Shown piece after piece: positions 1,703 through 64,000 of a stretch of 64,000 nt of DNA. A program made the position numbers and the translations under genes. The notes under the pieces were generated by a model. That model searched no databases, was not told the origin of the DNA, and was given only the letters and a program-made list of their open reading frames with translations. Positions within the stretch are counted from its first letter, which is position 1, and each line of letters starts with the position of its first letter. This DNA is from Zingiber officinale (lineage: Eukaryota; Streptophyta; Magnoliopsida; Zingiberales; Zingiberaceae): assembly GCF_018446385.1 (NCBI RefSeq), contig NC_055987.1, forward strand, positions 28,836,202-28,900,201. Reading direction: 5' to 3'.

Positions 1703-1704
1703 AG

Positions 1705-1716
1705 TGGTATCAGAGC
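1705..1716 (+). other. Primer-binding site (initiator tRNA-Met)
   Basis: TGGTATCAGAGC lies 2 bp after the 5' LTR. It is the usual plant LTR-retrotransposon site complementary to the 3' end of initiator methionine tRNA. Its position confirms the LTR end and the plus orientation. Confidence 0.93.
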
Positions 1717-1764
1717 AAGGTTGCTCTTCGTCGGATTAACACCCGGGGGAGTACAAGCTAGAGA

Positions 1765-6725: not shown

Positions 6726-6828
6726 AGTTGCTCCCGCGTTCTTCAGTCCAAACGACATCACATTGTAGCAGTACGTGCCGTCGGCTGTAACGAAGCTAAC
6801 CTTCTCTTGATCTTCTCGGGCGAGCGGC
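6726..6828 (-). pseudogene. Continuation of the Ty3/gypsy RT after the nested insertion
   Basis: About 100 bp encode the RT segment with GTYCYNVMSFGLKNAG, typical of gypsy RT just after the catalytic region. Its frame continues from 15533 when one copy of the GCGGC duplication is counted. It is cut again at the AGTTG insertion site of copy 1, and the last bases lie at 1-7. Confidence 0.85.
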
Positions 6829-7159: not shown

Positions 7160-9038
7160 TGTTAGGATCCTTCGTACGGAGGCTAGAGAGGGGGTGTGAA
7201 TAGCCGACTCCAAATCGTCGTTTCTTTCTACAAAACGTGTTAGCGCAACGGAAAATACAAAGAAACGAAAGAGAAGAAAACCAAACCTTAACACAAGGAT
7301 GTAACGAGGTTCGGAGATTAGGGCTCCTACTCCTCGGCGTGTCCGTAAGGTGGACGAGTCCAGTCAATCCGTCGGTGGATGAGCCCCCGGAGAACCGGCT
7401 AATACAATATACTCCTTGTGGGTGGAGAAACCTCGCCACAAACGTTTGCAACAGCAAACAAAGAGTACAAGAACAGTAAGAAAAGCAATACAATATGAAT
7501 ACAATAGCACTCTACCAATTGCTTGCTTTCTTGTCGACTGGAGGTGAAGCAGCAACTTCACAACCCAAATGCAGCAGCTAGTCGACGACTGGAAGCTCAC
7601 GCGAAGCTTCGGAGGCGAGCTCAATCAAAGCTCAGTTGAAGCAGAAGCTTCAGCAGCAGAAGAACAGAAGTTCTAGTAGCCAAGAAGAAGTAAACAGTAG
7701 CTCCTCAACCCCTTTTATAACCTGCGAAGAAGACACAACAGAAACTAGCCGTTGCTACGCAACAGCTAGGATGTGGACCGAACAGGCTTCATCCTGATCG
7801 GTCCACAAGGGTCCTGATCGGTCACAGGACCGATCAGGACCTTCCCTGATCGGTCATGGTGACCGATTAGGTCCTTCCCTGATCGGTCCCATGACCGATC
7901 AGGGCCTTTCCCTCCTTCTGATCGTCTCCTTCTGATCGTCTCCTGATCGGTCTGCAGACCGATCAGGAACTTCACTGTATGCTACTGATCGATCACTGAT
8001 CGGTCTCCAGTCCGATCAGATAACACACAGAAGCTCACTGTGTGGTTACTGATCGGTCACCAGACCGATCCGGATACCCAGTGTATCACTGGATCGATCC
8101 ACTGATCGATCCAGAGCTTGGTTTTCGCCCAAACCAAGTCTCAAGCCTTCCAAACCAACATCCGGTCAACCTTGACCTGTTGGTACATCATGCTTAGCCT
8201 CCGGTCACTCCCTTGACCTGCTAAGACTCCCCACCAAGTGTCCGGTCAATCCCTTTGACCCACTTGGACTTTTCTCTTCGTGTCAAGTATCCGGTCACTC
8301 CCTTGACCTACTTGACCTTCTCAACACCAGATGTCCGATCACCCTTGATCCATCTGGATTTTCCCTTGCCCGGCTTCACTCACCAGGACTTTCACCTAGC
8401 TTCACTCACCAGGATTTCCACACTGCCTAACATCCCAGTTAGGACTTTCTCACTGCCTCTGCTCACTCACCAGACTTTCCAACCGCCTAACATCCCAGTT
8501 AGGACTTTCCCACCGCCTCGCTTCACTTACTGGACTTTCCACACTGCCTAACATCCCAGTTAGGACTTTCCCACCGCTCGGCTTCACTCACGGGACTTCC
8601 ACTTTCACCTAGCTTCACTCACTAGGATTTTCACCGGTTTCACTCCCAGTTTCACTCACTGGACTTCCACCTTCACTCACTAGGGCTCAGCTTCACTCAC
8701 TGGACTTTTCTCGCCAACTCTGCTTGGACTTCTCCTGCCAAGTCTCCATACTTGGACTTTCCGCCAAGCTACCGCTGGTCTTTTCCCGCCAAGTCTCCGT
8801 TTGGACTTTTCCAGGTCAAGTCTCCATACTTGGACTTTTCGCGTGCCAAGCTCCCTTCTTGGACTTTTCCAATCAGTCAACCTTGACCTAAGGTTGCACC
8901 TACAATCTCCCAAACACCTATTCTTGTCAAACATCAAGAATACAACTCTTCCACGAACGTCAAACATCAAAACACAACTCAAGTCAGTCAACTCGAGTCA
9001 GTCAACCAGGTCAACCTTAACCTAAGGTTGCACCAACA
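7160..9038 (-). repeat. 3' LTR of gag-only element copy 2
   Basis: The LTR is about 1.88 kb and colinear with 12306-14226. The first 400 bp are essentially identical. The minisatellite block (about 8330-8870) has many 1-4 bp deletions relative to the other LTR. A minus-strand TATA (TTATAAAAGG) lies at 7713-7720. Confidence 0.92.
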
Positions 9039-10792
9039 ATCTCCCCTTTTTGATGTTTGACAAAATCCAAAATCAAGTTAGGTTAACCCGATAACCTAAC
9101 TTAGGTTTTCCAATGTTCTTCCTTGAACATTCTTCCAAAACCTACACTCTCCCTTGGGACATCTCTCCCCTTTTGACACACATCAAAAGAGGGAATCAAG
9201 GTCAAGAGTTTCTTCCTAATGAAAGTCCCATACCTTTCATTGAAACCCTTAACTTTCCCCTTGATACTAAAGTCAACACTCAACTTAGTGACAATCCCAT
9301 ATCACTAATCCTCAAAAGTCTTAAGGAGTAAAAACTCCCCCTAAAAGTCAACCCCCCTTGACAATTAGTTAAGACTCCCCCTAAAGGTCAACTCCCCCTT
9401 GACCATTGCACCAACAATGTCTTGGAGAGTTTCAAACCTTTAGAAACCCGAAACTCAACTCCCACAGCTGAAATTTCAGACCACAGCTGAAATTCAGAAA
9501 CTGGCACGCACCGGACCGATCAGGACCCCTCTGGATCGGTCCCCAGACCGATCCAGCCTTCCCTGGATCGGTCCAGTGACCGATCCAACTTTGGACAGAT
9601 TCGAGTTCTGATTTCCTTCTCCCGAAATTCAGAAACTCACAACAAATTCCAGAAAATTCCAAAAATTATGAAATTTTGATTATACACTCCTCATAACATA
9701 TACTATCAAGGAAAAATAGTTTTCTATGAAAATAGATTCCATTTTTCAATCTTGATACAAAGTTCAAAAGACTTTGAAATAGTTCAAAGTTAAGTAAACT
9801 TTATATCACAATGTTCAATGATGAATGCTATCACTAGAATGGCTTCATCAAGATTTTTCAAATCAATTTTGAAATGATTTTAAACCCTTTTAATTTAGGA
9901 CCATAATCTTAGGGCTAAATGTACATGACTTGTACACAAGCTTTCCCTATGATCCTCCATTTCTTGAATTAGGCTCATCTAGGTACAAGAACTATGCACC
10001 TTGATCCTAATTCATGATCCTAATATCTCACACACATCTAAAGTGTATCAAACACATCCATGGTAATTTTGATGTGAGATATGGGTTTAGGTATCTTAGA
10101 CTAAGGTCTCATGCATTTTCTAAACACAAATTTGATCTCAATATCAAAATGTGTTTTTCATCCTTAAATCAATTCAATTGATTATTAATGCAAGAGATGA
10201 TGACATGGCATAAAATGGTATCATAAATGAAAACATGTGCCAATGTCATGATGTCATGGCATAAAGTATGAAACTTAAATAAACATGACATAACAACTAG
10301 CCTAAGCATTATCATGACATTTCAAATGATAATAAAACTAAACATGATGTCATGACTTGTGAGAGCAAACAATCAAGGCAAGATTTAGCATAAATAAATA
10401 TACCTAGATTACCTATCTAAGTATCCTTAACCACTTGGCTAACTTCAAATTTAATCCTAGATTGCCCCAAAATGCCAAAATCCTAATTTTGACACTTCTT
10501 GAACTCTAGATTAATTCATGCCACTTAAAGATCAAATTTATCCTCAAAACTTGGCATGTTTCATTTTTTTTTTTCGAGAGTTCTCTAGATTTTCCCAAAT
10601 TGTGCCAATTGAGATTAAAAATGAAATTTCCAATCTTTAGGCACATTTAACTCTTCCAAGGAGTAAATATTAATGATTGTTCCATTTCATTTTCAAAGGT
10701 TCCCAAAAACCTTGAAAATGCTCCTTGAGTGTCAATTTCCTCAAAGTTGGGTTAACTACCTTTCTAATCGGAGTTGACACTCTCTAACCCAT
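9039..10792 (-). other. Non-coding 3' internal region of copy 2
   Basis: This is colinear with 3241-4986 of copy 1 in reverse orientation, AT-rich and without pol motifs. A GATCGGTCC/GGACCGATC block lies at about 9508-9592. G-rich GGGGGAGTT units appear in reverse at about 9330-9410. Confidence 0.75.
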
Positions 10793-12244
10793 TTATGGGG
10801 TAGAGAAGATGCTCCTAGGAACCCAATACCTATTAGAGCTCATTGGGTTCACTAAATATTCACTAGGGATAACTTCCCTAGCAACCCTCCTAATGACCCT
10901 CTTAGGCTTTAAAGCCTTGGTCATTTGGGTCTCATCAAGGTCAACTATGGGGGTGACTCCCCTTGTGACCTTGGTAATGGTCTTCCTAGCCCTAGGTTTT
11001 GTTCCATAATCGAATGAAACATTATGATAAGTGGGCTTGACCAATTGGGACTTAGGTTTGTGACCCAAACCTTTCTTGTCCTTGGATTTGGGTTTTTGAC
11101 CCTTAAACCCTAGAGATGACTTCTCCAAGTTCTTAAGAGCCTTTTCCAAAGTATCAAGTCTTGACCTCAAGACTTGATTCTCCTTCTCTAATACCTCAAT
11201 TTTTAATTTTCCATTTTTCTTTGAGGTATTCCTAGGCATATGTCTAGATGATTTGGGATTTCTATCTAGGTTTCCCTTAACCTTAGATGAGTTAATCCTA
11301 GGGTTGGTTTTCCTAGTGTTATCCTTATCTAGACTAACATCTTTGGCACCTAAGCACATATATTGGTTCCTAGAATTATCATGCTTATCATTCTTGACAA
11401 TTGCAATAAAACTACTAGCATGAGTCTTATTATTATTGCAAGAGTGTGCCTTAAATGTTACCTTAGGGTTTGCCTTAGCTCCCCCTATCGACGTGCTCGG
11501 TCTCTTGCCCTTGTGAGGTTGCCTCCCCCTCGGACAATGACTCCGATAATGTCCCCTTCGCTTGCATTGGAAGCACACCACGTGCTCCTTGCCCTTGCGT
11601 GTCGGGACTCCGGCTACCTTGACCTTTGGCGCCGGTGGAGTCTTCCTTACCCTCTTTGGACACTTACTCTTGTAATGTCCATGTTTCCTACACTCAAAAC
11701 ACATTATGTGTAATTTGCTTGAAATCACAGTGTTTGAGTTACCTAGAGTTGTGAATGGAGATGAGCTTTCTTCTTCATCCCTTCCGGAGGTAGATGCCTC
11801 TTCTTGCTCCGATCTTGAGCAAGAGCTCTCCTCCTCTTCTTCCTTGGATGTTGAGTAGCCCTCAACTCCCAATTCGCTTCCTCCATGATGTGAGCTACTT
11901 GGCTCACTAGGCTCCTCTTCATGGAATTTTGCAAAATTGTTCCACAACTCCTTGGCGTTGTTGTACCTATCTATCTTGCACAAAACATTATTAGGTAAAG
12001 CAAATTCAATAATTTTTGTTACCTCGTCATTGATTTCGGATTGTCGGATTTGCTCTTTCGTCCACTCCTTCTTCTTGATAGGTTTTACTTCCTCATCCAT
12101 CGGAGGGGAAAACCCTTCTTGTACGCAAAACCAATTTAACATATTAGTCCTAAGAAAATACATCATCCTTACCTTCCAATATGTGAAGTTGTCGTGAGAC
12201 TCGTAGAAGGGTTGAATCGTGACATCTTCTACATAGAGATCCAT
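10793..12244 (-). CDS. Retrotransposon Gag polyprotein, Copia-like, intact 483-aa ORF
   Basis: This is the structural (capsid/nucleocapsid-type) protein of copy 2. I chose the ATG at 12244 because it aligns with the start of the copy 1 Gag; the open frame extends 20 codons upstream only through a GTG inside the primer-binding site. Order: the YWKVRM capsid-like N-terminus, an acidic Ser/Glu linker, two CCHC knuckles (near residues 182 and 224), a Lys-rich region, a coiled coil built on LEVLEKENQVLRSRLDTLEK, and a basic tail ending shortly after the motif NRYWVPRS. It has no stop or frameshift. No protease or RT frame follows. Two intact gag ORFs of one family in a single window suggest selection or recent transposition. 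Confidence 0.9.
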   Translation of the reverse strand: MDLYVEDVTIQPFYESHDNFTYWKVRMMYFLRTNMLNWFCVQEGFSPPMDEEVKPIKKKEWTKEQIRQSEINDEVTKIIEFALPNNVLCKIDRYNNAKELWNNFAKFHEEEPSEPSSSHHGGSELGVEGYSTSKEEEEESSCSRSEQEEASTSGRDEEESSSPFTTLGNSNTVISSKLHIMCFECRKHGHYKSKCPKRVRKTPPAPKVKVAGVPTRKGKEHVVCFQCKRRGHYRSHCPRGRQPHKGKRPSTSIGGAKANPKVTFKAHSCNNNKTHASSFIAIVKNDKHDNSRNQYMCLGAKDVSLDKDNTRKTNPRINSSKVKGNLDRNPKSSRHMPRNTSKKNGKLKIEVLEKENQVLRSRLDTLEKALKNLEKSSLGFKGQKPKSKDKKGLGHKPKSQLVKPTYHNVSFDYGTKPRARKTITKVTRGVTPIVDLDETQMTKALKPKRVIRRVAREVIPSEYLVNPMSSNRYWVPRSIFSTP

Positions 12245-12291
12245 CTCTAGCCCGTGCTCCCCCGGGTGTTGATCCGTCGAAGAGCGGCCTC

Positions 12292-12303
12292 GCTCTGATA
12301 CCA
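12292..12303 (-). other. Primer-binding site (initiator tRNA-Met)
   Basis: The minus strand reads TGGTATCAGAGC 2 bp after the 5' LTR, as in copy 1. Confidence 0.93.
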
Positions 12304-12305
12304 CT

Positions 12306-14226
12306 TGTTAGGATCCTTCGTACGGAGGCTAGAGAGGGGGTGTGAATAGCCGACTCCAAATCGTCGTTTCTTTCTACAAAACGTGTTAGCGCAACGGAAA
12401 ATACAAAGAAACGAAAGAGAAGAAAACCAAACCTTAACACAAGGATGTAACGAGGTTCGGAGATTAGGGCTCCTACTCCTCGGCGTGTCCGTAAGGTGGA
12501 CGAGTCCAGTCAATCCGTCGGTGGATGAGCCCCCGGAGAACCGGCTAATACAATATACTCCTTGTGGGTGGAGAAACCTCGCCACAAACGTTTGCAACAG
12601 CAAACAAAGAGTACAAGAACAGTAAGAAAAGCAATACAATATGAATACAATAGCACTCTACCAATTGCTTGCTTTCTTGTCGACTGGAGGTGAAGCAGCA
12701 ACTTCACAACCCAAACGCAGCAGCTGGTCGACGACTGGAAGCTCACGCGAAGCTTCGGAGGCGAGCTCAATCAAAGCTCAGTTGAAGCAGAAGCTTCAGC
12801 AGCAGAAGAACAGAAGTTCTAGTAGCCAAGAAGAAGTAAACAGTAGCTCCTCAACCCCTTTTATAACCTGCGAAGAAGACACAACAGAAACTAGCCGTTG
12901 CTACGCAACGGCTAGGATGTGGACTGATCAGGCTTCATCCTAATCGGTCCACAAGGGTCCTGATCAGTCACAGGACCGATCAGGACCTTCCCTGATCGGT
13001 CATGGTGACCGATCAGGTCCTTCCCTGATCGGTCCCATGACCGATCAGGGCCTTTCCCTCCTTCTGATCGTCTCCTTCTGATCGTCTCCTGATCGGTCTG
13101 CAGACCGATCAGGAACTTCACTGTATGCTACTGATCGATCACTGATCGGTCTCCAATCCGATCAGATAACACACAGAGGCTCACTGTGTAGTTACTGATC
13201 GGTCACCAGACCGATCCGGATACCCAGTGTATCACTGGATCGATCCACTGATCGATCCAGAGCTTGGTTTTCGCCCAAACCAAGTCTCAAGCCTTCCAAA
13301 CCAACATCCGGTCAACCTTGACCTGTTGGTACATCATGCTTAGCCTCCGGTCACTCCCTTGACCTGCTAAGACTCCCCACCAAGTGTCCGGTCAATCCCT
13401 TTAACCCACTTGGACTTTTCTCTTCGTGTCAAGTATCCGGTCACTCCCTTGACCTACTTGACCTTCTCAACACCAGATGTCTGATCACCCTTGATCCATC
13501 TGGATTTTCCCTTGCCCGGCTTCACTCACCAGGACTTTCACCTGGCTTCACTCACCAGGATTTCCACACTGCCTAACATCCCAGTTAGGACTTTCTCACT
13601 GCCTGGCTTCACTCACCAGGACTTTCCAACTGCCTAACATCCCAGTTAGGACTTTCCCACTGCCTGGCTTCACTTACCAGGACTTTCCACACTGCCTAAC
13701 ATCCCAGTTAGGACTTTCCCACTGCCTGGCTTCACTCACCAGGACTTCCACTTTCACCTAGCTTCACTCACTAGGATTTTCACCTGGTTTCACTCACCAG
13801 GATTTCCATCTGCCTGGCTTCACTCACCAGGACTTCTCCACCGCCTGGCTTCACTCACCGGACTTTTCCTCTGCCAAACTCTGCTTTGGACTTTCCCCGT
13901 GCCAAGTCTCCATACTTGGACTTTCCGCGTGCCAAGCTACTTGCTTGGTCTTTTCCCCGTGCCAAGTCTCCGTACTTGGACTTTTCCAGTGTCAAGTCTC
14001 CATACTTGGACTTTTCGCGTGCCAAGCTCCCTGCTTGGACTTTTCCCAAATCAGGTCAACCTTGACCTAAGGTTGCACCTACAATCTCCCAAACACCTAT
14101 TCTTGTCAAACATCAAGAATACAACTCTCTTCTCGTCAAACATCGTCAAACATCAAAACACAACTCAAGTCAGGTCAACTCGAGTCAGGTCAACCAGGTC
14201 AACCTTGACCTAAGGTTGCACCAACA
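12306..14226 (-). repeat. 5' LTR of gag-only element copy 2
   Basis: The LTR is about 1.92 kb. It contains a minisatellite of CACTCACCAGGACTTTCC and CCTAACATCCCAGTTAGGACTTT units (about 13480-13860), the 26-bp CCAAGTCTCCATACTTGGACTT units (about 13870-14050), GATCGGTC/GACCGATC palindromes (about 12920-13260), and a minus-strand TATA (TTATAAAAG) near 12859-12867. Confidence 0.92.
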
Positions 14227-51800: not shown

Positions 51801-54800
51801 ATCTGAACCTACCTTTCTAATAAAAGGAGAATAAAATAAATCACGTAGATATTCAAATCCTATATAATGAGAATTTTCATATAATTTCAAGGGTGCATGT
51901 GCTCTTTTTCCTCTAAAAATCCAAATATGATAGAAGAGCACACTTCTACTAGTCTTGTGGTTAGGATAAACATACCATAACCCACATATGAGAGTGATCT
52001 TACTGAAATGCTCAAACAAGTAACCTCCGAGGTTAACTTCATAGAAGTAAAATTTTTGCTGGCTTTAGCATCATAATGCGATGTTTCTTCCAATAACTCA
52101 TGAGAAACCCCATAATCAATTCAACACTGGCCGAGTTGGAGAGATATTCACAAGCAACTAATTTTTGCATTAACTCAAGCTTTCATCTGTTATAACATTT
52201 CAATTTTCTTCCTCTATCCAACATTTATATTAATATTCATGGTTTGGGGTGGTCTGGTCTGGTTGGTGATTTAGTTAAATTGGCCATAGTGATTAGTTGA
52301 GATGGTTCAAGTTTAGGTGAGCAAACCTGTGAACAACCAAAAGGGTCGAATCCAAGGGGATGAAGTCTGACAACCCCCAAAACCAACAGCAGAGAATCCT
52401 GGTGTAGTTACTCTAACTCATCATGAGCCAAGTAGTTAAGTGATCGTAAGCACAAGTGTTTGGAAGATCTCAGAGACATGACTTCGATGCTCCTTGTTAG
52501 ATAACTGATTTATCAATCCATGCCACAACATAAGGGAAAAGAATGCTTCTTTGTCCTCGTCCAACTAGAGCATTTAATGCATTGTGATAGATCACATTGA
52601 ATGTGTGATGTAGCACGAGAGGAGATTGAGTGTTGGGCAGTTTGGGGAGTAGAAATCTGGAATAAAGTGGTAAGGAATGTAAAAACTTAGGTATCACACC
52701 TAAGGGTTCCTAAGCATCACACCATAGGAGGATTGTATCACACAACCAAAGAGAACTCGCAAAATATTGATATCTATTTTCTATCCCAGCATTACAACAG
52801 TATACACATTTATACTAAGACTCGCAAAGAACTCAAATAACATAAATGCTAATAGATAGACTCATTGAAAACACAAAAGACTCTAAAAGACACAGGAAAC
52901 TTAAAAGACTCACACATAGGAAACTTAAAGACTCATAAATATGCTACAATTTTCCAAGCATGAGAAATTAAAGCATATTGGAATTGTTGGTCATTTAATG
53001 CTGACTTTTGACTTCAACCCTTAGGAATTGATGAACTTTATATCATTTCCCAAGTAGGTTTATTATCTTCCAAGACATGTCAAAGTAATAGTGGAGTTTA
53101 GAATCTCCATTTCTGCACTTGTAGACTTTTAATGGAGTTTGTCACTTGTCTCCATCAATGTGTGATGACCCATCACATTTAATGTATTATCCGTCTTGTG
53201 TCCCTTAGTAGTAGATGTTGTCAATCGAAGGGTCTCCAGCTTACCATGATCCCGACAGTTGGTACCTCTTGAGGTGGGCTTGGGAGTTGAGTACTTTGTT
53301 AACTAGAGAAGAAGGAGAGTTTATGTGTCGCAGGTCCAATTACGGACCTGTTTCAATTGAGATCACATGGGCTAGTAGAAGATGGACAAACTTGAGTCAA
53401 TCACATGAACTAATGGTCAATCCTATAGCATTCCACATTGAATATGAGAGTCCCTTCGACTGGTGACATTAGCGACTAACTAATCTACGACACACGCATT
53501 AATGCGACAGGTCACCACACATTTAATGTTCTCCATCTCATGGCATTAAATGGCCACGTTGAGCGAGGATGGAGAGGCATCATCTACCCATTGCTGTATT
53601 GGTCGACCATGTCGACTTTTGCCGAAGAGCATCAAGGCCATACCAACCTATAGTGAGGTCACCTACTAGCTCAAAGTAATGTCTCCAAAACCACTAAAAT
53701 TTAGCTCACTTGAATTCCAACTAATTTGAACATCAAGAGTGTTTGTGCTGAGAATTCAAGTGCCAATGTTGGAAATTCAAAGGTTATATATTACACTCTT
53801 CATCTCCTCATATTCAGTCGTAATGAGACAATTATTAATATAGGAGATGACGAGTTGACTGGAACTTGAGAACTTTAAATATTTGGGATCATTTTTACAA
53901 AACGATGAAAGGATTGAGAAAGATATCTTACATAGAATACAAGCAGGATGGTCGAAATGGAGAACATCGAGTGTTTTATGTGATCGTAAAGTGCCTCTAA
54001 AACTTAAAGGAAAATTCTACAAAATTGTAATTCAACCTGCTATATTATATGGAGTTGAATGTTGGACTTTACTAGAGTACATGGGTAGAAAATAAGAGTT
54101 GTAGAAATGAGGATGTTAAGGTGGATGTGTTACATACGAGGATAAAAAAAATGACAATATTAGAGAGAAATCAAAATAGCATCTATTGAAAGAAAACTCT
54201 GATAGACATGTTTAAGATGGTATAGACATGTATTTAGATAATCAATAAATGCTCCAGTTAGGCGATGTGAAACTATAACAAACACACACATCAAACGAGG
54301 AAGACCAAAAAAGACAATTAGCAACAATACAACAAGATAAAATTTATTTAAGTATAGATGATGATATAGTAGACGATAGAGCCCAATGGCGTAAAAGGAT
54401 CCATATAGCCGATCCCAGTAAGTGGGATAAGACTTAGTTGTTGTTGTTGTATCTCCTCATATTCAACCCCTTTGACATTGCTCAAGCATTCTTGCCAAAA
54501 TCAAACCATTTTCTCATCCAATCACTAAAGTCAACTAAACCAACTTGCCCAACCGGATTAGACCATACACAAATCACGAGCATCAACAATGTAAGTACCA
54601 CATAAAGTTCCTAGATTATGGTATTGGAACTTCCCATTAGCAAAGCTGAACAAAGAGATGCAAAGGCATATAACCACCTAATATTTTCTATTTTTTCAGG
54701 TGTACAGTCAACGGCTTACATCAACCTTAGATATTCACCCTCTCAATTTCTTTTGACACCATAGAATTAACCAGACATGCATCAGGTAGGATATTAAGAC

Positions 54801-55289
54801 GAATGTACAACAAATTTAAACATCTCGAATACAAAGTTTATATAGCCGCTCAACCAATCAAGAGAACAGAGAGAGGATTAAAGGAAGGCACAAAAAGAAT
54901 TAACAAATTTCAGATAAAAAAAAAAGCATACATCCAAACACACGAAGATGATAAGACTAAGAACCTGAAAGACACCACAGGGCCGACTTCCTCGCATATC
55001 TGGACGAGCTGCTCCTCCGTAGCATCATAAGGAATATTCCCAACTGCAACAATTCCAAATTATACCCAATGTTGGCACAAAAACAAATACTCTAGGAAAA
55101 TAACTTGTAAGCGTGGATCTTAAAAAGGCAATAATTTTAACAAAACATTTCAAAGCACAAAGCACGGGAAGCTGTGAGACAAAAAGAACAAAGTAGGTTA
55201 AAAAAAGGGCGAAATTAAATAGATGCACGGCAAGGTCAATCAAACCGACCGAAGACGCATCGATGCTGAGAGCCAACGGAGGCGGCCAT
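39863..55289 (-). CDS. CSTF64: Cleavage stimulation factor 64-kDa subunit (CstF64/CSTF2), 10 exons, 510 aa
   Basis: This nuclear RNA-binding subunit of the CstF complex recognises the U/GU-rich element downstream of the poly(A) site and promotes 3'-end cleavage. Exons: 55289-55250, 55043-54965, 50856-50682, 50211-50178, 50069-49834, 49762-49685, 42047-42012, 41934-41521, 40969-40661, 39994-39863; they sum to 1533 nt in one frame. The RRM spans residues about 11-88 with RNP2 CVFVGNIPYD and RNP1 KGYGFCEY. The hinge domain that binds CstF77 spans about 115-214 ([37 protein letters not shown]). A Gln/Pro-rich region fills exon 8. The C-terminal three-helix CSTF_C domain is exon 10 ([18 protein letters not shown]). 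I chose this start because it gives a short MAAS leader before the RRM as in plant relatives. Introns 2 and 6 are swollen by transposons; all exons are intact. Confidence 0.94.
42281..42321 (+). mobile_element. Minimal 41-bp RTE 3'-end insertion
   Basis: GCCGACCCCACCTAGTGGAA plus a (TTG)-like tail is the same 3' terminus as the RTE LINEs in this gene. It is flanked by an 18-bp duplication TCTTATTTAATATTCTAA (42263-42280) and TCTTATTTAATATTTTAA (42322-42339), one mismatch. It is an extremely 5'-truncated insertion in CSTF64 intron 6. Confidence 0.85.
42954..46198 (-). mobile_element. Full-length RTE-type LINE in CSTF64 intron 6
   Basis: The element runs from the 5' end (46198, GC-rich leader with GACCGGTCATGGCCGGTCCC) to a 3' terminus of GCCGACCCCACCTAGTGGGA followed by a short (TTG)n tail at 42954. 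A perfect 15-bp target duplication TCAAAATTAATTTGA lies at 42939-42953 and 46199-46213. It has the same orientation as the host gene. It encodes a broken endonuclease-RT frame. The short microsatellite tail instead of poly(A), and the single-ORF layout, fit the plant RTE clade. Confidence 0.92.
43017..46093 (-). pseudogene. RTE LINE ORF (AP endonuclease plus reverse transcriptase), multiply broken
   Basis: The AP-like endonuclease occupies 46093-45041, with [27 protein letters not shown] and [10 protein letters not shown] stop follows after RIKW; the frame resumes through 44944-44654, where more stops and shifts occur. RT motifs follow: [15 protein letters not shown] with the first catalytic Asp (about 44030), and the FADD active-site motif in [12 protein letters not shown] (about 43750). 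A stop separates the two RT pieces near 43845. The C-terminal part has the RTE-typical [15 protein letters not shown] and [19 protein letters not shown], ending at 43017. Several nonsense codons and shifts make it inactive. It is sense-oriented in the host transcript but removed with the intron. Confidence 0.9.
46970..47579 (+). mobile_element. 5'-truncated RTE LINE fragment
   Basis: This plus-strand copy of the last ~600 bp of the RTE covers the [29 protein letters not shown] and [18 protein letters not shown] segments with deletions. It ends in GCCGACCCCACCTAATGGGA and TTG/TTA repeats. It is antisense to CSTF64. I could not find a clear target duplication. Confidence 0.85.
48004..49200. mobile_element. 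PIF/Harbinger-type non-autonomous element carrying a host gene fragment
   Basis: Its ends are imperfect inverted repeats (left GGCTCCGTTTACTTGGGAGG; right, reversed, TGCTATGTTTACTCTCAGGC). They are flanked by a TTA duplication at 48001-48003 and 49201-49203, as in Tourist/Harbinger elements. Inside, 48475-49003 encodes a degraded DUF1005-like protein fragment. It lies in CSTF64 intron 6. Confidence 0.72.
48475..49003 (+). pseudogene. Captured DUF1005-family gene fragment
   Basis: DUF1005 is a plant-specific family of unknown function. Three frames give consecutive family pieces: [15 protein letters not shown] at about 48480 (the family N-terminus), then [20 protein letters not shown]...[20 protein letters not shown] (48580-48778), then [20 protein letters not shown] and [19 protein letters not shown] up to about 48990. 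Frameshifts and a stop near 48777 separate them. It has no introns within the fragment. It lies between the terminal repeats of a Harbinger-type element, which points to gene capture. Confidence 0.75.
50857..53801 (-). other. CSTF64 intron 2, distal part, no recognised gene
   Basis: This is intronic DNA between exon 3 and the RTE fragment. The sequence around 52300-53800 is less AT-rich and looks like an old insertion, with repeated ACACAT/CATTTAATG words, but I find no coding motif or clean ends. Confidence 0.4.
53817..54450 (+). mobile_element. 5'-truncated RTE LINE fragment with target duplication
   Basis: The last 634 bp of an RTE element lie in plus orientation ([40 protein letters not shown]), ending GCCGATCCCAGTAAGTGGGA and (TTG)n. 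A perfect 15-bp duplication ATCTCCTCATATTCA flanks it (53802-53816 and 54451-54465). It is antisense to CSTF64, in intron 2. Confidence 0.9.
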
Positions 55290-56160
55290 GCCGCAGCGAA
55301 GGGAGACCTTCCTGTCGCACCAACTCTCTTTCTCCAGATAAACAGTCTAGGCAGAAGAAGCTGCGCGGTTCAAACACAGACTCGAAGCGGGCAGGAGAGA
55401 TCCAAATCCTGGAGCTCTGAGTCCCTAAGACTTTATCTAGTTCCTCAGCGATTTAGGGCGTCGTCGGCGCGTCCAGACGGCGGCGGCCTGGTCTGGAAGG
55501 GCAGAAAGAAACGAGGGAATCGTTACGTTTCCAGAAATGAGGTCGGAATTGGGCATGTGGTTCGCCACGTTTTTCTTAGGAGCGATATTTATCTTCGGCG
55601 AGCCAATATACAATACGATTATTATCTAACATCTAAATACTAAATACCGGAATGTATATAATCTTTTCCCAAATATTACACTCGAACAAATTCAATTAGA
55701 TTTGGAACACTAGAATAGTAACTACCTTTAATGCTAAATTTGCACAGATAAATTTGCTTTATTTAATAATATGAAAAATAATAAATATTAAAAAAATAGA
55801 AATAAAATAAAATATTTTGAAAAAAAAAAATCAAAAGTATTGATTTAAATCGTTGGAATTAAGATGGATAACTGTAACATCGTTATCGCTGAAGCTGAGA
55901 GCCCGGTGCAGAAGTCAAAGTCACACGCATGGAAAAAAAAAAAATGATAATTTATCAAAGGGGTACGTAGAAATTTAAATTTATCAAAATGTATATATTA
56001 TTTTGATATTTATCAAAGAACGTATTTTGTTAAATGCATTTTCTATTTTACCCTCCTGACAACTTGACTTTTTCTCTTGTTTTTTTTTTCTACTATATTT
56101 CTCTCTTCTCTTTTTTGTATCGACATACAGAACATATAAATAATATTAGTTTATTTTTAA
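55290..56160. other. CSTF64 5' UTR/promoter and AT-rich intergenic DNA
   Basis: The CSTF64 transcript must start here on the minus strand; 55290-55510 is the GC-richer part expected for its 5' UTR. No TATA box was clear. The rest is AT-rich with no gene. Confidence 0.45.
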
Positions 56161-56416
56161 TAACATTTTAATACATTTGAAGAAGCAAAAATAAACAATG
56201 AATAACATATTTGAACTCCTTGTAATTCAAGAAATCCACTGAAACTAAAATGAATATAATCGGAACTCTCTAGATCGATCAGTGGGTTTCGATCAAAATT
56301 CACTGATGGACCTAGAGAGCTCCGATTGCACCCATTTAAGTTTCTATGGATTTCTGAAATTACAAGGAGTTCAAATATATTGTCCATTATTTATTTTGGC
56401 TTTTCATAAATGTTAA
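56161..56416. repeat. Foldback (long inverted repeat) A
   Basis: Two arms of roughly 115 bp are near reverse complements around a ~16-bp loop at about 56285-56300 (GTGGGTTTCGATCAAAATTC). Arm landmarks are TTTGAACTCCTTGTAATT (left) and AATTACAAGGAGTTCAAA (right). ORFs read on both strands because of the symmetry; they are not genes. Confidence 0.85.
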
Positions 56417-56450
56417 CATGAAAAATGAAAAAATCGCAAAAACGCTCACG

Positions 56451-56584
56451 TTGGGCCTGATATGGAATCATATTAGGCCTAACATGGGTCTGATATCATT
56501 CCATATCAAGCCCAATGTGGGTCTGATATCATTCCATATCAGGCCCACGTTGGGTCTAATATGAGTCTATATCAGACCCAACGT
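56451..56584. repeat. Palindromic array TTGGGCCTGATATGG...
   Basis: Several tandem units of about 33 bp contain GGCCTGATATGGAATCATAT and variants; each unit is itself nearly palindromic. Confidence 0.8.
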
Positions 56585-56589
56585 GAGTT

Positions 56590-56890
56590 TTTTTTGCTGA
56601 TTCTTTGATTTTATATATTAACATCTATGAAAAAATGAAATAAATAATGGACATCATATTTGAACTCTTTGCAATATCAGAAATCTATAGGAACCGAAAT
56701 GAATGCAATCGGAGCTCCCTAGGTTCATCAGTGGGTTTCAGTCAAAACTCACTGATGAACCTAGAGAGCTCCGATTGCACCTATTTCAGTTCCTATGAAT
56801 TTCTGATGTTGCAAGGAGCTCAAATATGGTGTCCATTATTTATTTTGACTTTTCATAGATATTAATATATAAAATCAAATAATCGTCAAA
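56590..56890. repeat. Foldback (long inverted repeat) B, related to A
   Basis: This is a second copy with the same architecture and clear sequence similarity to 56161-56416 (TTTGAACTC...TTTGCAATATCAGAAATC arms; loop GTGGGTTTCAGTCAAAACTC). Its arms extend further, through TGATTTTATATATTAA on both sides. Confidence 0.85.
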
Positions 56891-56900
56891 AAAATTCACA

Positions 56901-57001
56901 TTGGGCCTGATATGGAATCATATCACGTCCAACGTGGGCCTGATATGAAATCATATCAGGCCCAGCGTAAACCTGATATGAAATCATATCAGGCCCAACT
57001 T
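56901..57001. repeat. Palindromic array, second block
   Basis: Three units of CCTGATATGAAATCATATCAGG-type palindromes repeat the block at 56451-56584 on the other side of foldback B. Confidence 0.8.
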
Positions 57002-57293
57002 GGAAAGCCAAGTTATGATACATTAGTGCAAAGCATACTTTGAACTGTATATTGGATCAGTCATTGTGGAAGCCGAAAAGGGAAATTTTCAGTAGAAGTT
57101 ATAAAAATGTATTGGTTTTTTCAATATTGCAATACATTTATCACAAGATAATAAACTTTTTAGGAAATTCCATTATTTAAAGGTTGATTTACCCTAATAG
57201 AAGAAATACATATTGAACCATGAAAATGCTTTATAGAATGACTATCTAGTGTTTTCAAATGATTAAAATGAAACACAGATTTAATGATCTACC

Positions 57294-58312
57294 TGTTGGT
57301 GCGGTTAGCACTAACGATTTAACCCAGGTTTTGATGAATGACAAATCAGGTTAAGTTAGTTTGTTATTGTCTGACACTTTGATCAAGTGTGCAGGAGAAG
57401 CCCAGACAGGTCGACGGGCTGACCGGATGTCTGGCACGAAGTCCAGCTAGGTCGACGGGCTGACCGGATAGCTGGCGAGAAGTCAAGCGGTCGTCAGGCG
57501 CTGGTCGAGCCACGCCAGCAAGCTGTCGGCGGGGTCCGGGACGCTTGCGAGAAGTCAGACGGTCGACGGCCGACCGGACGTCTGGCGGTAAGTGAGGTAA
57601 GTCACCGGAGGACTGTCAGGACGCGTTCCGGGAAGGAACATTAGGCGTCGATCCGGCTTAGATCCATTTCGGATGTCTAAGTCGAGATCGTGACTAGATT
57701 CCGGTCTCGAAAGACGGAATCTAAGTCATACTCTTGTTATCCAACTGTTGAACTATGCTAACACATTTCTTATATTCATATTATGTTGCCTCGGACTAAC
57801 TTTGTTTTGCGGAAAAGGAGTTTTAGAAACAAGGTGGTCCGGCGCGGAGGTCAGCGCGGAAGGCAAATTTTATCCAGCCGAGTCGCCGCCACGTGGAGCA
57901 TCATGGTTTGTCGATTCGTCACATTCGTGCGCCTGAAGGATCCAGCGCGAACGCAAGATATAAAAGAAGCCCCGGGCAGGAGCTTGAATCAATCAATTGC
58001 CGAGAATTCTTCTCACGGTCTTCACGCTCAACGTTCGCATGCGCCTTGACAAAGCTCGACACTCGCTCCATTCTTTTCCTTCTTGTCGGTATTTTTTTTT
58101 TAGTTTTCATTAGCATTCCTTAGTTCTTTTGTAATCATTATTTGAATTGCTAGTGATTGCCCAACGAAAGTGGTCGAGGACCACGAGCCTTCGAGTAGGA
58201 GTCGTCACAGCTCCGAACGAAGTAAAACAACCGTGTCTATTTTACTTTTCCGCCGCCTTATACTCTTGTTTTGAATCGATATTCACCCCCTATCGAATCT
58301 AACGGTCCAACA
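57294..58312 (+). repeat. 5' LTR of the third LTR element
   Basis: It is 1019 bp, TGTTGGTGCGG...GGTCCAACA. It has a repeated GGTCGACGGGCTGACCGGAT unit near 57408-57560 and a TATA box TATAAAAG at 57959-57966. No second LTR is available for comparison. Confidence 0.8.
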
Positions 58313-58314
58313 AG

Positions 58315-58325
58315 TGGTATCGAGC
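58315..58325 (+). other. Primer-binding site (initiator tRNA-Met-like, one base missing)
   Basis: TGGTATCGAGC lies two bases after the LTR. Compared with the sites at 1705 and 12292 (TGGTATCAGAGC) it lacks an A, which would weaken tRNA pairing. Confidence 0.8.
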
Positions 58326-58502
58326 AGGTACCCTCTGATTTGGTGCAACCACCAATCGAGGGGTGATTTTTGGTTTTCGTTTTACACTCAAAACTTGTTT
58401 ATCATTTTTTGCAATATCAATCTAGATTTTTTTACTATTTTTCTTTCACTACTAATCCAAGACCAAGTCTTGGGATATTTTTCGGTTATTTCCGTGCACA
58501 TA

Positions 58503-60121
58503 ATGTCCCAACAAGAAGGATTTAGTACAGTTCGACCTCCACTCTTCAACGGGACGACTTCCCGTCTTTGGAAGAAGCGCGGAGGTCTACCTCAAAAGCA
58601 GACTTGACCAGGTGGATGAGCATTCGAGACCCTACAAAATTCCGGTGACAACGCCGACAATCTAGTAGATCCTGAAGACTGGACAGATCCAAGAAAAAAC
58701 ATCAAAGAAAATAAGGCGATCAACACTCTACAATGTGGATTGACAAGAGAAGAACTGAGCAGTGGCCACACAAAAACGCTAAAGAGCTATGGGACAAGTT
58801 GATCGAAATGCACGAGGGAACCGACGCCAAGGTAACAAAATGACCTTCTCTTAAATAAAATTTTAATATAAAATGCAAGAAGGTGAAGCAGTGAATCAAC
58901 TACACGCGAGGATCAAGGACATCCTCAACGGGCTTCACATGATAGGCCCGGATGGAGAACGGAGACTTAATAAGGTGCGCGTTAAACGCCTTTCCACGTA
59001 ATAGTTGTGGGCATCAATAGTAGATGCCTACAAAATTTCTAAGAATCTTTCTAACTTAAAATTAGATGAGCTTTTACGTGAATTAGAATTACATGAACAA
59101 ACTAATGGAGCCGAGAAAGGTATAGCTCTATTTCGGGTTCCTCGAAAAAGAAAAGCAAGCACCGAAAATGAAGATGAATCGACCAAGACTCAGAGACGAA
59201 GAACACCGTGAACTTGGTAAGAAAAATGTTCACCAGAGAAAGAGGAGCTTCAGCAGAAAATCAGCTCTCCCTCGGAGCAAAGAGCGTGACTTGCTACTGC
59301 TGCAATAAAAGGGACACTACAAGAACGCCCAAAACTGAAGTTCGACAAACCAAAGCCAACCAAAAAGAAAGCACTTGAAAGCAACGTGGGACGACTCCTC
59401 GGACGAATCAAGAAGAAGAAGCGAACATCGAGCCACCTCATGCCGATGGCCCGGGTCAAATGTAAGACAGCAGTCGGAAGATGAAGACGGGTCTGAACCT
59501 CAAACAAGCCACGAGTCCGTACTCGTTTCCGAAGGCTCGAATGAGGTATACTTTAATTTAAACAAAAAATTTTTTAGAATCATCTCCTGTTTGAATAGTA
59601 AATTAACTAAAGTTGAAAATGAAAATAAATCACTTCTTGAGGAAAATCAAAACCTCAAGGAACAATTAAAAAATTCGAATCCAACTCAAGATCTAACACT
59701 TGAAGAGGAAAATCTATCGTTAAAAAATGATGTTAAAAATTTAAAAGAATTACTAGAAAAATTTACAACAAGATCAAAAAATCTAGACTTAATCCTAAAT
59801 AATCAAAAAGCATGTTATAATAAAACCGGACTGGGATATAAGTCGAATTCAAATAAAACCTTCAACTCATTAATAACCCAATACAAATCAACCAATCTAG
59901 CTTGGGTTCCGAAAGCGTGTCTGACCACGCAAGTAGGACTTAATCAATATTATATACCTAAAGAAAAAATACATTATATAAAATCGAATAAACCAAACCA
60001 AAATCCAAAATACAAACCTAAATCAAATTCAAAATCTAAACAGTTTGAAAATCAACAAAATTATCACCAAGTTAATCATAACTATAAAAAGAATCGACAC
60101 AAGCCTAAAATCAAAACTTAA
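58503..60121 (+). pseudogene. Copia-type gag, multiply frameshifted
   Basis: It begins MSQQEGFSTVRPPLFNGT, a start common in plant copia Gag, then shifts frame within 40 codons. Later pieces show NAKELWDKLIEMHEGT (about 58790), the LHARIKDILNGLHMIGPDG segment (about 58900), a damaged zinc knuckle (CYCCNKRGHY at about 59300), and then a clean 248-codon frame (59375-60121). That frame has ATWDDSSDES, a Glu/Asn-rich coiled coil (VENENKSLLEENQNLKEQL), TNLAWVPKACL and a Lys/Asn-rich tail. The last part is intact while the first is broken in several places. As in the other two gag genes here, the frame ends without protease. Confidence 0.82.
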
Positions 60122-61085
60122 ATTAATGGCCAATGATTCAGGGGGACCTCCAAAACTAACTTACCCGACAGGGTAACCCAAAACTAACAAACCCGGCAGG
60201 GCAATTAGAATTAGAGACCAAGTTTAACTTGAATCATGGTATTGGTGAAATTTTTGGATGATAGTACGTTAGGGAAACTTGGGCATCGCATGTCTAGAAA
60301 GATATGGTTTCGATCTGGTGCATTTGGCCAAGTGGAACTGACCGAAGCTACCCTTAAACGAATCCTAACCAGTTAGACCAAGATTTAGTACTAAGTTCCG
60401 TGGATAGGACTATTCGGAAAACCTCGAAAGGTTGGTTACTTTTAATGATGTCCTTGTGACTCACCAAGCTTAGAAGTTTATCCGAAGAATGCCTATTTGT
60501 AGAAACCAAAGCTAAGTCTAAATCTAACACAAGTTAAACCAAAACTCTGTAATCAAACTAATTTCATCTCACAAAATCATAGGATTCCCTGATTGATAAT
60601 ATAGATCGGGTGAGATGAATAAGACTTAAATTTTAATTTTAAAGTTTTTTTTACTTAAAAATTATTTTCAAAATTTTAATTTTAAACTTAAAAATTTTAA
60701 TTTTAACTTAAAAATTAATTTCAAAAATTTTAATTTTAAACTTAAAAATTAATTTCAAAAATTTTAATTTTAAACTTAAAAATTAATTTTAAAATTTTAA
60801 ACTTAAAAATTAATTTCAAAATTTTAATTTTAAACTTAAAAATTATTTTCAAAATTTTAATTTTAAACTTAAAAATTAATTTCAAAATTTAATTTTAAAC
60901 TTAAAAATTAATTTCAAAATTTTAATTTTAAACTTAAAAATTAATTTTAAAATTTTAAAACTTAAAAATTTATTTCAAAATTTTAAACTTAAAAATTAAT
61001 TTCAAAATTTTAATTTTAAACTTAATTTCAAAATTTTATTCAAACTCAAAACTTAACTTCAAACCTAATTTCAAAAAAAAAAAAA
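60122..61085 (+). repeat. Spacer with a ~33-bp AT-rich tandem array
   Basis: 60122-60610 is non-coding remnant. From about 60640 to 61040 there are about a dozen copies of a ~33-bp unit (AATTTTAAACTTAAAAATTA plus ATTTCAAAATTTT). A 19-A run lies at about 61074-61091. Confidence 0.8.
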
Positions 61086-61097
61086 AAAAAGGTAAAA

Positions 61098-61218
61098 AAC
61101 CAGGGGCGGGCGCCCCTGGTATTCCCCTCCGGGGCGCCCGGAAGGGGTTCCGGGCGCCCCGCCCTAGCAACCCCGGGCGCCCGGAAGGGATCCGGGCGCC
61201 CGGAGTCCCCTATAAATA
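61098..61218 (+). promoter_or_regulatory. GC-palindrome block followed by a TATA box
   Basis: Four or more copies of CCGGGCGCCCGG-type palindromes with GGAAGGG(A/T)TCC spacers end in CCCCTATAAATAAGGGGC, a TATA box (61211-61218) about 160 bp before the ORF start. The block looks like a promoter for the next ORF, separate from the LTR promoter. That is an inference from layout. Confidence 0.6.
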
Positions 61219-61372
61219 AGGGGCAGCAGGCGCCCCCAACCTTTGCCCCACCAATTCTCACTTTTGCCAAGGTTCACTTTGAACCTCAGTGCGAAAGTAC
61301 TCTAAATCAAAATTTTCTTGCGGTGAAGACGCTGTTGCGATTCAACCGAGGTCGTCAAATCTATATTTTTCG

Positions 61373-62597
61373 ATGGCTCCTCGGTAAATAAAATACTTCC
61401 CCTCTCTAAAATCTTATTAGAATTTGTCTTCTCAAATTTTTTTTCTTAGAATATTCTTGTATTTATATACAGTAGAAAACGAACAAATACTGGTGCTGGA
61501 CCCTCCAATGCTAGTACAGACCCTAGGTTTCCCACAGACGAACTTAGGATTAAGTTTGAATCCACCATTTATAAGGCCATTAGGACTACCTGCATAGATA
61601 GATCGTTCTTTCTAAGATCATGTCCCTCTGCTTTAGAGGTTATAGGCCACTATAACTTAACGAACCTTGTCGAATGTACCAGTCCAATAAACATAAGTCT
61701 GTGTGCCGAATTTTGCAATAACCTAGTAAAAGTAGACGATTTCACCTATACCACTAGGGCAGCAGGTACTGATATCGTATTTTCCCCTACGACTATCCGA
61801 GAGTTTTTAGAGTTAAGTCACCTTGCTCCTTTTTGTGCTATCCTCCGAGGGATCTACCGCTCAAGATCCCTACTCACATATTACTCTCGATACGATTTAT
61901 TCGTATTTTTTGAGGACCATCGTGAGTTTAGGTCAGTAGAACTTCGAGTCCAGGACTACGCTCTTTATAGGGTTGTAGTCCTTTGCATTTTACCACTGAC
62001 TACTCGGGACATCGCTGTGATGCGCTCATTCCATTCGTTCTTACTTTATGCCCTGATTCATAGGTTAGACATTGACATCAGCCTACATATCTTCTCCACC
62101 ATCATCTATTCAATTGGATTTGTGACTGACGATCGAGTCCATATACCATTTGGTCACATTCCATATATGTCCTCGTTGCACATTGATGTCACTAGGGAGA
62201 CGTTGCCCATACGACCGAGTTCGATGTTATAGCCGCTCGGAACTTTTCCCTAGCCGGCATCCAGATAGAGATAACGGGACTATGTCTTGGCGGAGGGGGC
62301 ACAGCACCAGCCGCACAGGTGGACGAGTTCATGCTCGCACTATTTCCAGAGGAAGCCGCACCAGCTCCACCACCACCCCCAGCTCGAGCACCACGACACG
62401 CTCCCCGCACTCTAGCCGACCGTATGACCGGACTAGAGAGAGCTATAGCGAGTCTCCAGCAGGAGAACTCTGATTTTCATCGGGACATACGGCGAGAGGT
62501 TGCCGAGTTACGAGCTGCCGGAGACACCCGACACACTGAGCTGATGGCACTTATTCGATCCTTGGGATCTGGACCACCCCCTTCATCATCTCAGTAG
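61373..62597 (+). pseudogene. Putative plant transposon protein-like ORF, two exons, one frameshift
   Basis: I propose an 11-nt first exon, ATGGCTCCTCG (61373-61383), an 87-bp GT-AG intron, and exon 2 from 61473; this gives a basic MAPRRKRTNTG start. The frame runs open to a stop at 62232 and continues one base off from about 62200 to the stop at 62597, so a single indel near 62200 separates the two parts. The middle (ECTSPINISLCAEFCNNLVK, DIVFSPTTIREFLELS, then VQDYALYRVVV, FLLYALIHR, VHIPFGHI) has the layout of the putative plant transposon protein (Transposase_32) family, whose function is unknown. The C-terminus is Ala/Pro-rich then coiled coil (LADRMTGLERAIASLQQENSD). I cannot assign an activity. 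The indel may be a sequencing error. Confidence 0.62.
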
Positions 62598-63237
62598 CTT
62601 TAGTGATGACCTACTTCTGTAGCTACACTACTTGTAAAATATTTTGGATTTATCTAGTGATATTTCAAACCTACATTAATTATGTTTTATCTCGGTAGAC
62701 TATAATTTTTCTAAAAACTAGTTTTTTTTAACTTATAAGTTAAAACTGTATGTTTTCAAAAAACTTACCATTTTTAGATTTTCAAAAACAGTTTTGGCCT
62801 TAGACTAGTTTTGAATCCTTAGAAAGCATGTACCCATAGGACTAGTTTTTGAGCATCTCACCAACACCCTAGGTTTACCTTGCTTGTGTTTGACAAACAT
62901 AGAAAGGGGTGAGATGCATAGGCCAACTGTCTGGACTTAAGATGCTTATTTTAGTGCATCAACATAAGTCTGGACGTTAAATACAACTCAGATATTAATC
63001 AGATTAAAGTTATTCAGTCAAGTCAAAAAAACTGACTGCTTGTAATCAACTTAATCTGACTAACCATGTGAAAGCTACTATCTTCTGATAGCTAGTTAGT
63101 ACCTAAGTGGTTAGACAGCTGGTTAAAGTTAAGTATCAAATTAAGGGGGAGGTTTATTTTTTAATTATCTCCTTAAGTGCTATTTTTTGATCTTCTCTTT
63201 CAAATCTCTCTAGAAAATTCTATCTCAATTTTTAAAA

Positions 63238-63277
<40 letters not shown>

Positions 63278-64000
63278 ACTTTGAATATTTTTAGCAAATA
63301 TTTTCAAATTTCATGTCGGGTTCAGGGGGAGGAACTAATTAAAAATTTCCCTTTATATAAAATATTTTAAATTTTGTTTGAAAAATATTTTCTTAAAAAT
63401 TTCTTAAACCTACTTTTGAAAACTAACTCTTATAAAACTAAGTTGTTTTTAAGAATTGGGTTTTACTTTTTATTGAAAATCGATTTTGAAAATTAGATTT
63501 AACTTAGTTTTGAAAATTATGGAAATTAGATTTTTCAAAACTTAAGTTTACAAACTAAGCTTCTCTAAATCAACTCAAAATTGTTTGTTTTAAATCACAA
63601 ACTTTTTATCCTTTTTACTTAGTCCTTGAAAACTCAACTTTTCAAGTATTTTAAACCATGATTTTGAAACTAGTACTTTTGAACTTTAAAATTTTGATTT
63701 TTGAAAATTAGATTTAATTATTTTACTTTATCAAAATTAGTTCTACCAAACTCCTTTGAAAACTAAAAGTAAAGTTCAAAATCAATTTGATTTGCAAAAA
63801 CTCAGTGTTGCAAATTATGAAAGTTAGATTTTTCAAACTTAAATTAAATCGTTTACAAACTTAGTGTTGAAAAATAAATCAGTTTTTGGAAAAATAAATT
63901 TTTCAAACTTAGTTTTGGAATTTTGGTGTTTGAAAACTTATGTTTGTAAATGAAACTATCTAAACTTAGCTAGCTTTCTAAAAGCTAAAAGCTAATGCTT
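62598..64000 (+). other. Non-coding remainder of the third LTR element
   Basis: This is AT-rich sequence with frequent TTTTGAAAACT-like words and a (TA)n microsatellite at about 63246-63276. Purine-rich stretches AAGGGGGAGG (about 63144) and CAGGGGGAGGA (about 63325) resemble polypurine tracts, but no LTR follows either. No gene is seen. Confidence 0.5.

Follow-up and report, generated by a model that had tools for sequence, protein, structure and literature searches.

A probable non-autonomous Sirevirus of Zingiber officinale with gag, an env-like gene and no detectable pol

TR-GAG elements consist of long terminal repeats (LTRs) plus gag as the sole coding region. The element described here has intact LTRs and a gag without pol in common with them, and differs in carrying a second gene, apparently under selection and full-length in one sibling copy, so that gag is not its only coding region. 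It lies at the end of a 64,000-nucleotide stretch of Zingiber officinale DNA (hereafter the window; C2:28836202-28900201 in a screened genome of 3.09 Gb and 211 contigs), and its closest described relatives are the Sireviruses (SIRE/Maximus, Ty1/copia). Polypurine tract (PPT) features and a palindromic motif in front of the env-like gene define Sireviruses (PMC2829016), and Bousios et al. 2010 favoured an internal promoter for that gene without conclusively identifying it (PMC2829016). Transmembrane and coiled-coil domains have been reported for Sirevirus env-like genes in MASiVEdb, where the expression modes include stop-codon suppression and an internal promoter (PMC3414828). A 3' eORF is present in 74% of SIRE elements (PMC6317226), and a PF20167-like aORF in an Athila element of sunflower (PMC11728184), in the one paper found to name that family. 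These elements resemble ours in having an extra open reading frame (ORF); they are described with a polyprotein, and the accessible accounts mention no intron or internal promoter for that ORF.

We consider it probable that this element is a Sirevirus, complete and non-autonomous, which has lost pol, has kept gag and the 3' env-like gene, and transcribes the latter separately. The direct basis is an LTR-to-LTR insertion, Sirevirus motifs at its junctions, the failure to detect pol, homology of both genes to those of gag-pol elements in the genome, and third-position bias of shared variants in both. The features are as follows; c-numbers denote sibling elements, which together with the window element make up nine regions of one family.

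57294..58312 (+): 5' LTR, 1019 bp with TG..CA ends, placed by self-comparison, target-site duplication and empty site
58313..58330 (+): primer-binding site, AGTGGTATCGAGCAGG in the window copy
58456..60121 (+): gag, copia type; PF14223 found in sibling c9a, window copy broken by many small indels
60122..60640 (+): non-coding spacer in place of pol, in seven of the eight sibling regions (not c15a)
60631..61067 (+): AT-rich tandem array, 93% AT
61097..61205 (no strand): GC-rich palindromic boxes, a repeated motif of Sirevirus type that precedes the env-like gene
61211..61219 (+): TATA box, TATAAATAA at 61211; CTATAAATAAG in eight of nine regions, not c9a
61373..61383 (+): exon 1, ATGGCTCCTCG, 11 nt, putative start of the env-like protein
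61384..61472 (+): predicted phase-2 intron, 89 nt, 79% AT
61473..62597 (+): exon 2, PF20167-like (Transposase_32) env-like ORF, frame-broken in the window copy
63144..63151 (+): polypurine octamer AGGGGGAG, copy 1 of 4
63324..63331 (+): polypurine octamer AGGGGGAG, copy 2 of 4; the remaining two lie beyond the window
64275-65291 (window-equivalent, beyond the window end by 1.3 kb): 3' LTR, by self-comparison

Boundaries and Sirevirus features

Self-comparison of sequence read past the window end located the 3' LTR, which the first-pass annotation had expected beyond position 64000, and showed the two LTRs to be 85.4% identical. A target-site duplication, CTACC, flanks the element on both sides. 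The 2491-bp upstream flank aligns to contig C1 with 91% identity as far as the insertion point; there (L068) the target occurs once, as CTAC(T), the flanks meet with no element between them, and the downstream flank is 96% identical. C1, which is presumably the homologous chromosome, thus holds the empty site. Duplication and empty site together establish one LTR-to-LTR insertion of 7998 bp that includes the ORF. Along with the recurrence of the ORF in the 29 copies read, they bear out the earlier proposal of a single element, and support the conclusion that it is complete and non-autonomous and that the ORF travels with it.

Several Sirevirus hallmarks are found in the element and its siblings. 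In eight of the nine regions an octamer AGGGGGAG begins exactly 10 bp upstream of the 3' LTR (c19 is the exception; the last octamer of the window element is at 17265 and the LTR at 17275 in the coordinates of the region read), and the four copies of the window element all lie downstream of the ORF; the several PPTs of Sireviruses likewise mostly follow the env-like gene. Likewise shared with Sireviruses are 1-kb LTRs and palindromic boxes followed by a TATA box; the boxes are found in the linker between the spacer and the ORF, and in the LTRs of siblings c14, c15b and c9b. The LTR of the window copy has its own TATA motif (TATAAAAG) at 57959. The primer site adjoining the LTR, which we take to be of the Met-tRNA type, reads AGTGGTATCAGAGC in six of the eight siblings; c19 and the window copy have a variant and c15a has none. 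Unlike Sireviruses, the window element has no pol, and its assignment is based on motifs, as there is no reverse transcriptase to place. A recognisable TATA box and a short predicted phase-2 intron in the env-like gene also set it apart, being absent from the accessible part of the Sirevirus account (PMC2829016).

Gag, pol and the env-like gene

Gag is open over 572 residues in sibling c9a. The window copy has 25 indels of its own, compared with 0-13 in the other seven aligned copies, in agreement with the earlier description of a decayed copia-type gag; the wreckage is a property of this copy and not of the family. Other genomic copies keep both genes: sibling regions with gag and the ORF were found, with gag matches in eight of the nine.

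Neither a pol domain nor a pol remnant was detected in the window element by domain search and tblastn, which agrees with the first reading of the sequence. Two gag-pol elements of the same genome (L028 and L029) served for comparison. Their pol gave no tblastn match at E 1e-3 in the nine elements, their env-like proteins matched all nine (about 30-43% identity in the longer matches), and their gag matched eight, with up to 52% identity; the rearranged region c15a has no gag match. The spacer also precedes the ORF copy L057 (stretch L063), and four further stretches located 850-1500 bp upstream of ORF copies are array-like, with 92-93% AT. In all, no pol was seen upstream of the family ORF at 14 places (the nine regions and five short stretches), out of about 2847 first-look candidates.

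The ORF had been likened to putative plant transposon proteins, and it does resemble PF20167: it aligns along the domain, is 35% identical to the L029 protein, and is homologous to PF20167 members in L028 and L029 that score above the Pfam cut-off. A genome search with PF20167 (best 150 scored of 7315 first-look candidates) yielded 15 loci that were fetched, and these fall into two other groups, A (11 loci) and B (four). The two long stretches L028 and L029 contain gag (PF14223), pol (RVT_2, rve) and then the PF20167 ORF, and 12 of the 15 loci have a pol-end motif upstream of their ORF. Since homologous ORFs follow pol in gag-pol elements and the alignment runs along the domain, the window ORF is identified as the Sirevirus 3' ORF. 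This corresponds to the Sirevirus position of the env-like gene, between pol and the 3' LTR, as found in L028 and L029; in the window element, with pol absent, the ORF follows gag. The first-pass view of an accessory gene added by this element is not supported, as the homologous ORF sits after pol in gag-pol copia elements; with such homologues in two further groups, we reject the ORF as an invention of the window element.

In the 29 ORF copies read (of 40 listed and 2847 first-look candidates), one (L057) is open to its natural end, at 385 residues. The window ORF, previously described as open for more than 250 codons before one indel, has several frame breaks relative to its siblings: about 61815 to 61925 is read in the wrong frame, bounded by indels, and the frame is lost a second time before a stop at 62232, the C-terminal part being separately open (62196-62597). 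The env-like proteins start with basic residues (RKR, RKKQKV, RQKR), and a C-terminal stretch without Pro or Gly may be helical. The maximum 19-residue hydropathy is 1.50-1.73 in three proteins, with no clear membrane segment in the hydropathy plot. We judge an accessory intracellular function no less probable than one as an envelope protein. Structural and viral comparisons gave little: an AlphaFold model of the L029 ORF has a mean predicted local distance difference test (pLDDT) score of 41.9, a profile search of PDB returned 0 matches, and a viral_contigs search found no relative.

Selection was assessed from the codon positions of variants. For the ORF, 29 copies were compared over 61474-61815, 61946-62190 and 62400-62594, leaving out a repetitive stretch and 62191-62399; a shared variant is one where the second commonest letter occurs in at least two copies. 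Shared variants are distributed 16/16/44 over codon positions 1/2/3 (chi-square p 3e-5, n 76), and singletons 41/29/52 (p 0.04). In gag (eight copies, first 150 nt left out), the shared variants number 23/11/104 and the singletons 99/65/141. Some copies may have been counted twice across two haplotypes, which would dilute the bias and not create it. The signal in the ORF is clear only in the larger sample and is weaker than that of gag. Because shared variants concentrate at third codon positions, both genes have apparently been kept while pol is gone. Most shared variants should postdate the common ancestor of the copies, and that ancestor was already without pol provided that the spacer and array common to them record a single loss.

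The suggestion that the accessory gene has been kept longer than gag is not supported, given the stronger constraint on gag across copies (23/11/104 against 16/16/44). A wrecked gag beside a better kept ORF does not indicate a longer life of the ORF, because the damage is specific to the window copy and age is unlikely as its cause. The Kimura two-parameter (K2P) distance between the LTRs of this copy is 0.151, compared with 0.022-0.060 in three siblings, and the differences between them are unevenly spread, from 0.7% to 27% per block of 150 columns, transversions (86) outnumbering transitions (49). Against five siblings, its spacer, leader and ORF differ by 1-7% (0.5-5.6% in two sibling pairs), its gag by 10-19% with 28-33 gaps (sibling pairs 4-5%), and its LTRs by 11-24% (sibling pairs 7-14%). 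LTR and gag (57294-60121 and the 3' LTR) are thus far more diverged than ORF and spacer, and this unevenness, together with the empty site on C1, makes age an unlikely cause. Dating the copy from its LTR divergence was rejected on account of the patchy differences, the transversion excess, the empty site and the 96% identity of the downstream flank. A local sequence error or a chimeric or mixed ancestry is possible.

Other repeats were observed in the window and around related ORFs. Two further LTR elements, at 8-6728 (+; LTRs 8-1705 and 4987-6728, 86.6% identical) and 7160-14226 (-; LTRs 7160-9038 and 12306-14226, 95.4% identical), each have a gag match and no match to pol or to the env-like ORF. 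In both, the primer sites adjoin the LTRs and AGGGGGAG occurs in clusters, and both have the appearance of Sirevirus derivatives with gag only. A nest of inverted and direct repeats at 56183-57003, rich in GGGCCTGATATGG-type palindromes and present in high copy in the genome, is perhaps a foldback element or one resembling miniature inverted-repeat transposable elements; a search with 54800-57290 gave 5146 first-look candidates, and most listed matches lay over these repeats. Elsewhere, at C15:60306800-60323800 (L014, L015), the AT array, promoter and env-like ORF are tandemly duplicated in units of about 4.1 kb that are 96.7% identical, accompanied by inverted LTR fragments. PF20167 ORFs are also found paired on the same strand, 9.15-9.27 kb apart, at C12:69284044/69293199 (L028 over the second), C7:43970036/43979305 and C7:159688438/159697585, which suggests tandem LTR elements sharing an LTR.

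The linker and the exon-intron layout of the env-like gene

The linker contains, in the order given by the first-pass annotation and borne out at 60631-62597, an AT array, GC palindromes, a TATA box, a predicted intron and the ORF. The array ranges from about 268 to 1211 bp in eight copies measured. Five GGGCGCCC palindromes lie at 61108-61201 (0.19 expected; none of 100 shuffles reaches five), followed by TATAAATAA, a leader, ATGGCTCCTCG|GTAAAT, the intron and exon 2. The predicted splice positions, 61383 and 61473, coincide with those first proposed; the intron is 89 nt long, not 87. Of 29 copies of the window family, 27 retain the donor GT (one is truncated at this point) and 28 the acceptor AG. 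No in-frame ATG that might take the place of exon 1 occurs between the upstream stop and residue 60 of exon 2 in 27 of the 29. Per 100 nt, the intron has 29.4 gap events, the leader together with exon 1 has 2.8, and the initial 342 nt of exon 2 have 1.5.

A similar layout follows pol in the gag-pol elements. In L029 there are palindromes (CAGTCGACTG), TATATAAGC, a leader, ATGGAGCGTCG|GTAATA, an intron and exon 2; in L028, ATCGATC-type palindromes, a leader with no clear TATA box, a 26-nt first exon, an intron and exon 2. Altogether 13 of 16 loci in three divergent groups share an ATG exon of 11, 20 or 26 nt with a GTA donor, always in phase 2 and with the junction in one and the same codon, for Arg (Lys in L035); in group B and the window two acceptors a few bases apart are possible. 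A looser test was passed by shuffled upstream sequence in 44-126 of 1000 cases (eight loci tested), and for the three group representatives (72, 126 and 122 per 1000) the joint value is about 1 in 1000 if they are independent.

The promoter-like module also recurs in the LTRs. The LTR of sibling c14 carries the CCGGGCGCCCGG boxes of its linker upstream of the LTR TATA box, boxes common to LTR and linker occur in c15b and c9b, and in L029 the two share a CAGTCGACTG block (63 bp, 90%), each running into TATATAA. The boxes differ between the c14 and L029 families and agree inside each family, as would be expected if common factors acted on LTR and linker.

We propose the following mode of replication and expression. 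Genomic RNA would start in the 5' LTR, and Gag made from this RNA would package it, with the enzymes of reverse transcription supplied by a gag-pol relative. The env-like gene would form a second transcription unit driven by the palindromic boxes and TATA box, its short first exon supplying the ATG and the phase-2 intron being removed from the mRNA. The RNA that is reverse-transcribed is apparently unspliced, because the intron is present in all 28 copies spanning it. The separate transcription and splicing put forward in the first-pass annotation thus gain comparative support from the shared layout, and remain predictions from sequence.

Alternative readings and implications

Several observations weigh against the proposed Sirevirus with a separately transcribed env-like gene. 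The window ORF scores 32.4 bits with PF20167 (E 1.1e-7) and L057 35.8, below the Pfam cut-off of 45 bits. A pol-bearing partner with the same LTR was not found: besides the window's own, no LTR pair framing one appeared in the LTR search (best 40 scored of 9004 first-look candidates), and the genome search with RVT_2 scored the best 150 of 120,716 first-look candidates. The shared exon arrangement was not found in three of 16 loci (L030, L039, L041), several loci pass with another ATG, donor or acceptor, and the common arrangement was picked after viewing the loci; taken alone, the window locus is weak evidence for an intron (72 of 1000 shuffles pass). Gaps are also frequent inside the ORF, at 28.5 per 100 nt in its repetitive stretch and at 11.9 and 6.3 in its later parts; because that stretch is gapped like the intron, indel density alone proves nothing. 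No linker-LTR palindrome match was obtained at the threshold used in c2b, c20 and the window copy, and the 5' LTR of the latter has no exact palindromic box. The TATA pattern, finally, is present in none of the 11 group A loci and is missing in one of the four in group B.

The lack of a TATA pattern in group A would fit an ORF whose sole message is LTR-initiated RNA, made accessible through splicing of an upstream donor to the exon-2 acceptor or through internal initiation, with the TATA box and exon 1 incidental; in other plant elements, env-like genes are reportedly expressed through spliced mRNAs and stop-codon suppression (PMC2829016). We regard this as unlikely, though the strongest of the alternatives, since the same tiny-exon layout, phase and donor recur in three divergent groups, palindrome-TATA modules are common to LTR and linker in two families, and an in-frame ATG close to the beginning of exon 2 is missing from nearly all copies. 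Slightly less likely still is that ORF and leader are relics, without role or expression, in a gag-only element of TR-GAG type. In its favour, only one of the 29 copies is open as far as the natural end, and the pairwise differences among nine copies in 61474-61815 are 82/74/126 by codon position, falling to 71/64/76 without the window copy; and the two gag-only elements of the window, having neither pol nor ORF match, imply that the ORF is dispensable for such elements. On the other side stand at least one full-length ORF and the bias of the shared variants, most of which should stem from transposing lineages, singletons being less biased.

The gene-like TATA box, leader and intron could also suggest that an independent mobile element, or a host gene that had been captured, entered a gag-only element later. 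We consider this highly improbable and have rejected it: the siblings share the arrangement (kept in eight of nine regions, c15a being rearranged), the donor is kept throughout most ORF copies, a homologous ORF occupies the equivalent position after pol in gag-pol elements, and the empty site spans the whole element.

A Sirevirus that has lost pol and transcribes its env-like gene separately thus remains the reading we prefer. Beyond this single element, the evidence seems to us evenly divided on a wider proposal: that an intron-bearing second gene, with its own promoter derived from the palindrome-TATA module of the family's LTR, is an old Sirevirus feature, and that a two-gene lineage without pol has multiplied under selection on both proteins. 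Our literature search found no report of an intron in a Sirevirus env-like gene or of a pol-less lineage with gag and an env-like gene, which is weak evidence of absence given its poor coverage of subscription papers. The conserved intron and the pol-less lineage look new; the idea of an internal promoter is already in print (PMC2829016). For the question of how the Sirevirus env-like gene is expressed, the palindrome-TATA-exon-intron layout provides exact coordinates. The retention of the env-like gene after the loss of pol suggests that its protein benefits the encoding element, and sets the function of this protein apart from that of pol. If the wider proposal is true, the pol-less lineage would be a parasite that itself provides a coat and an accessory protein.

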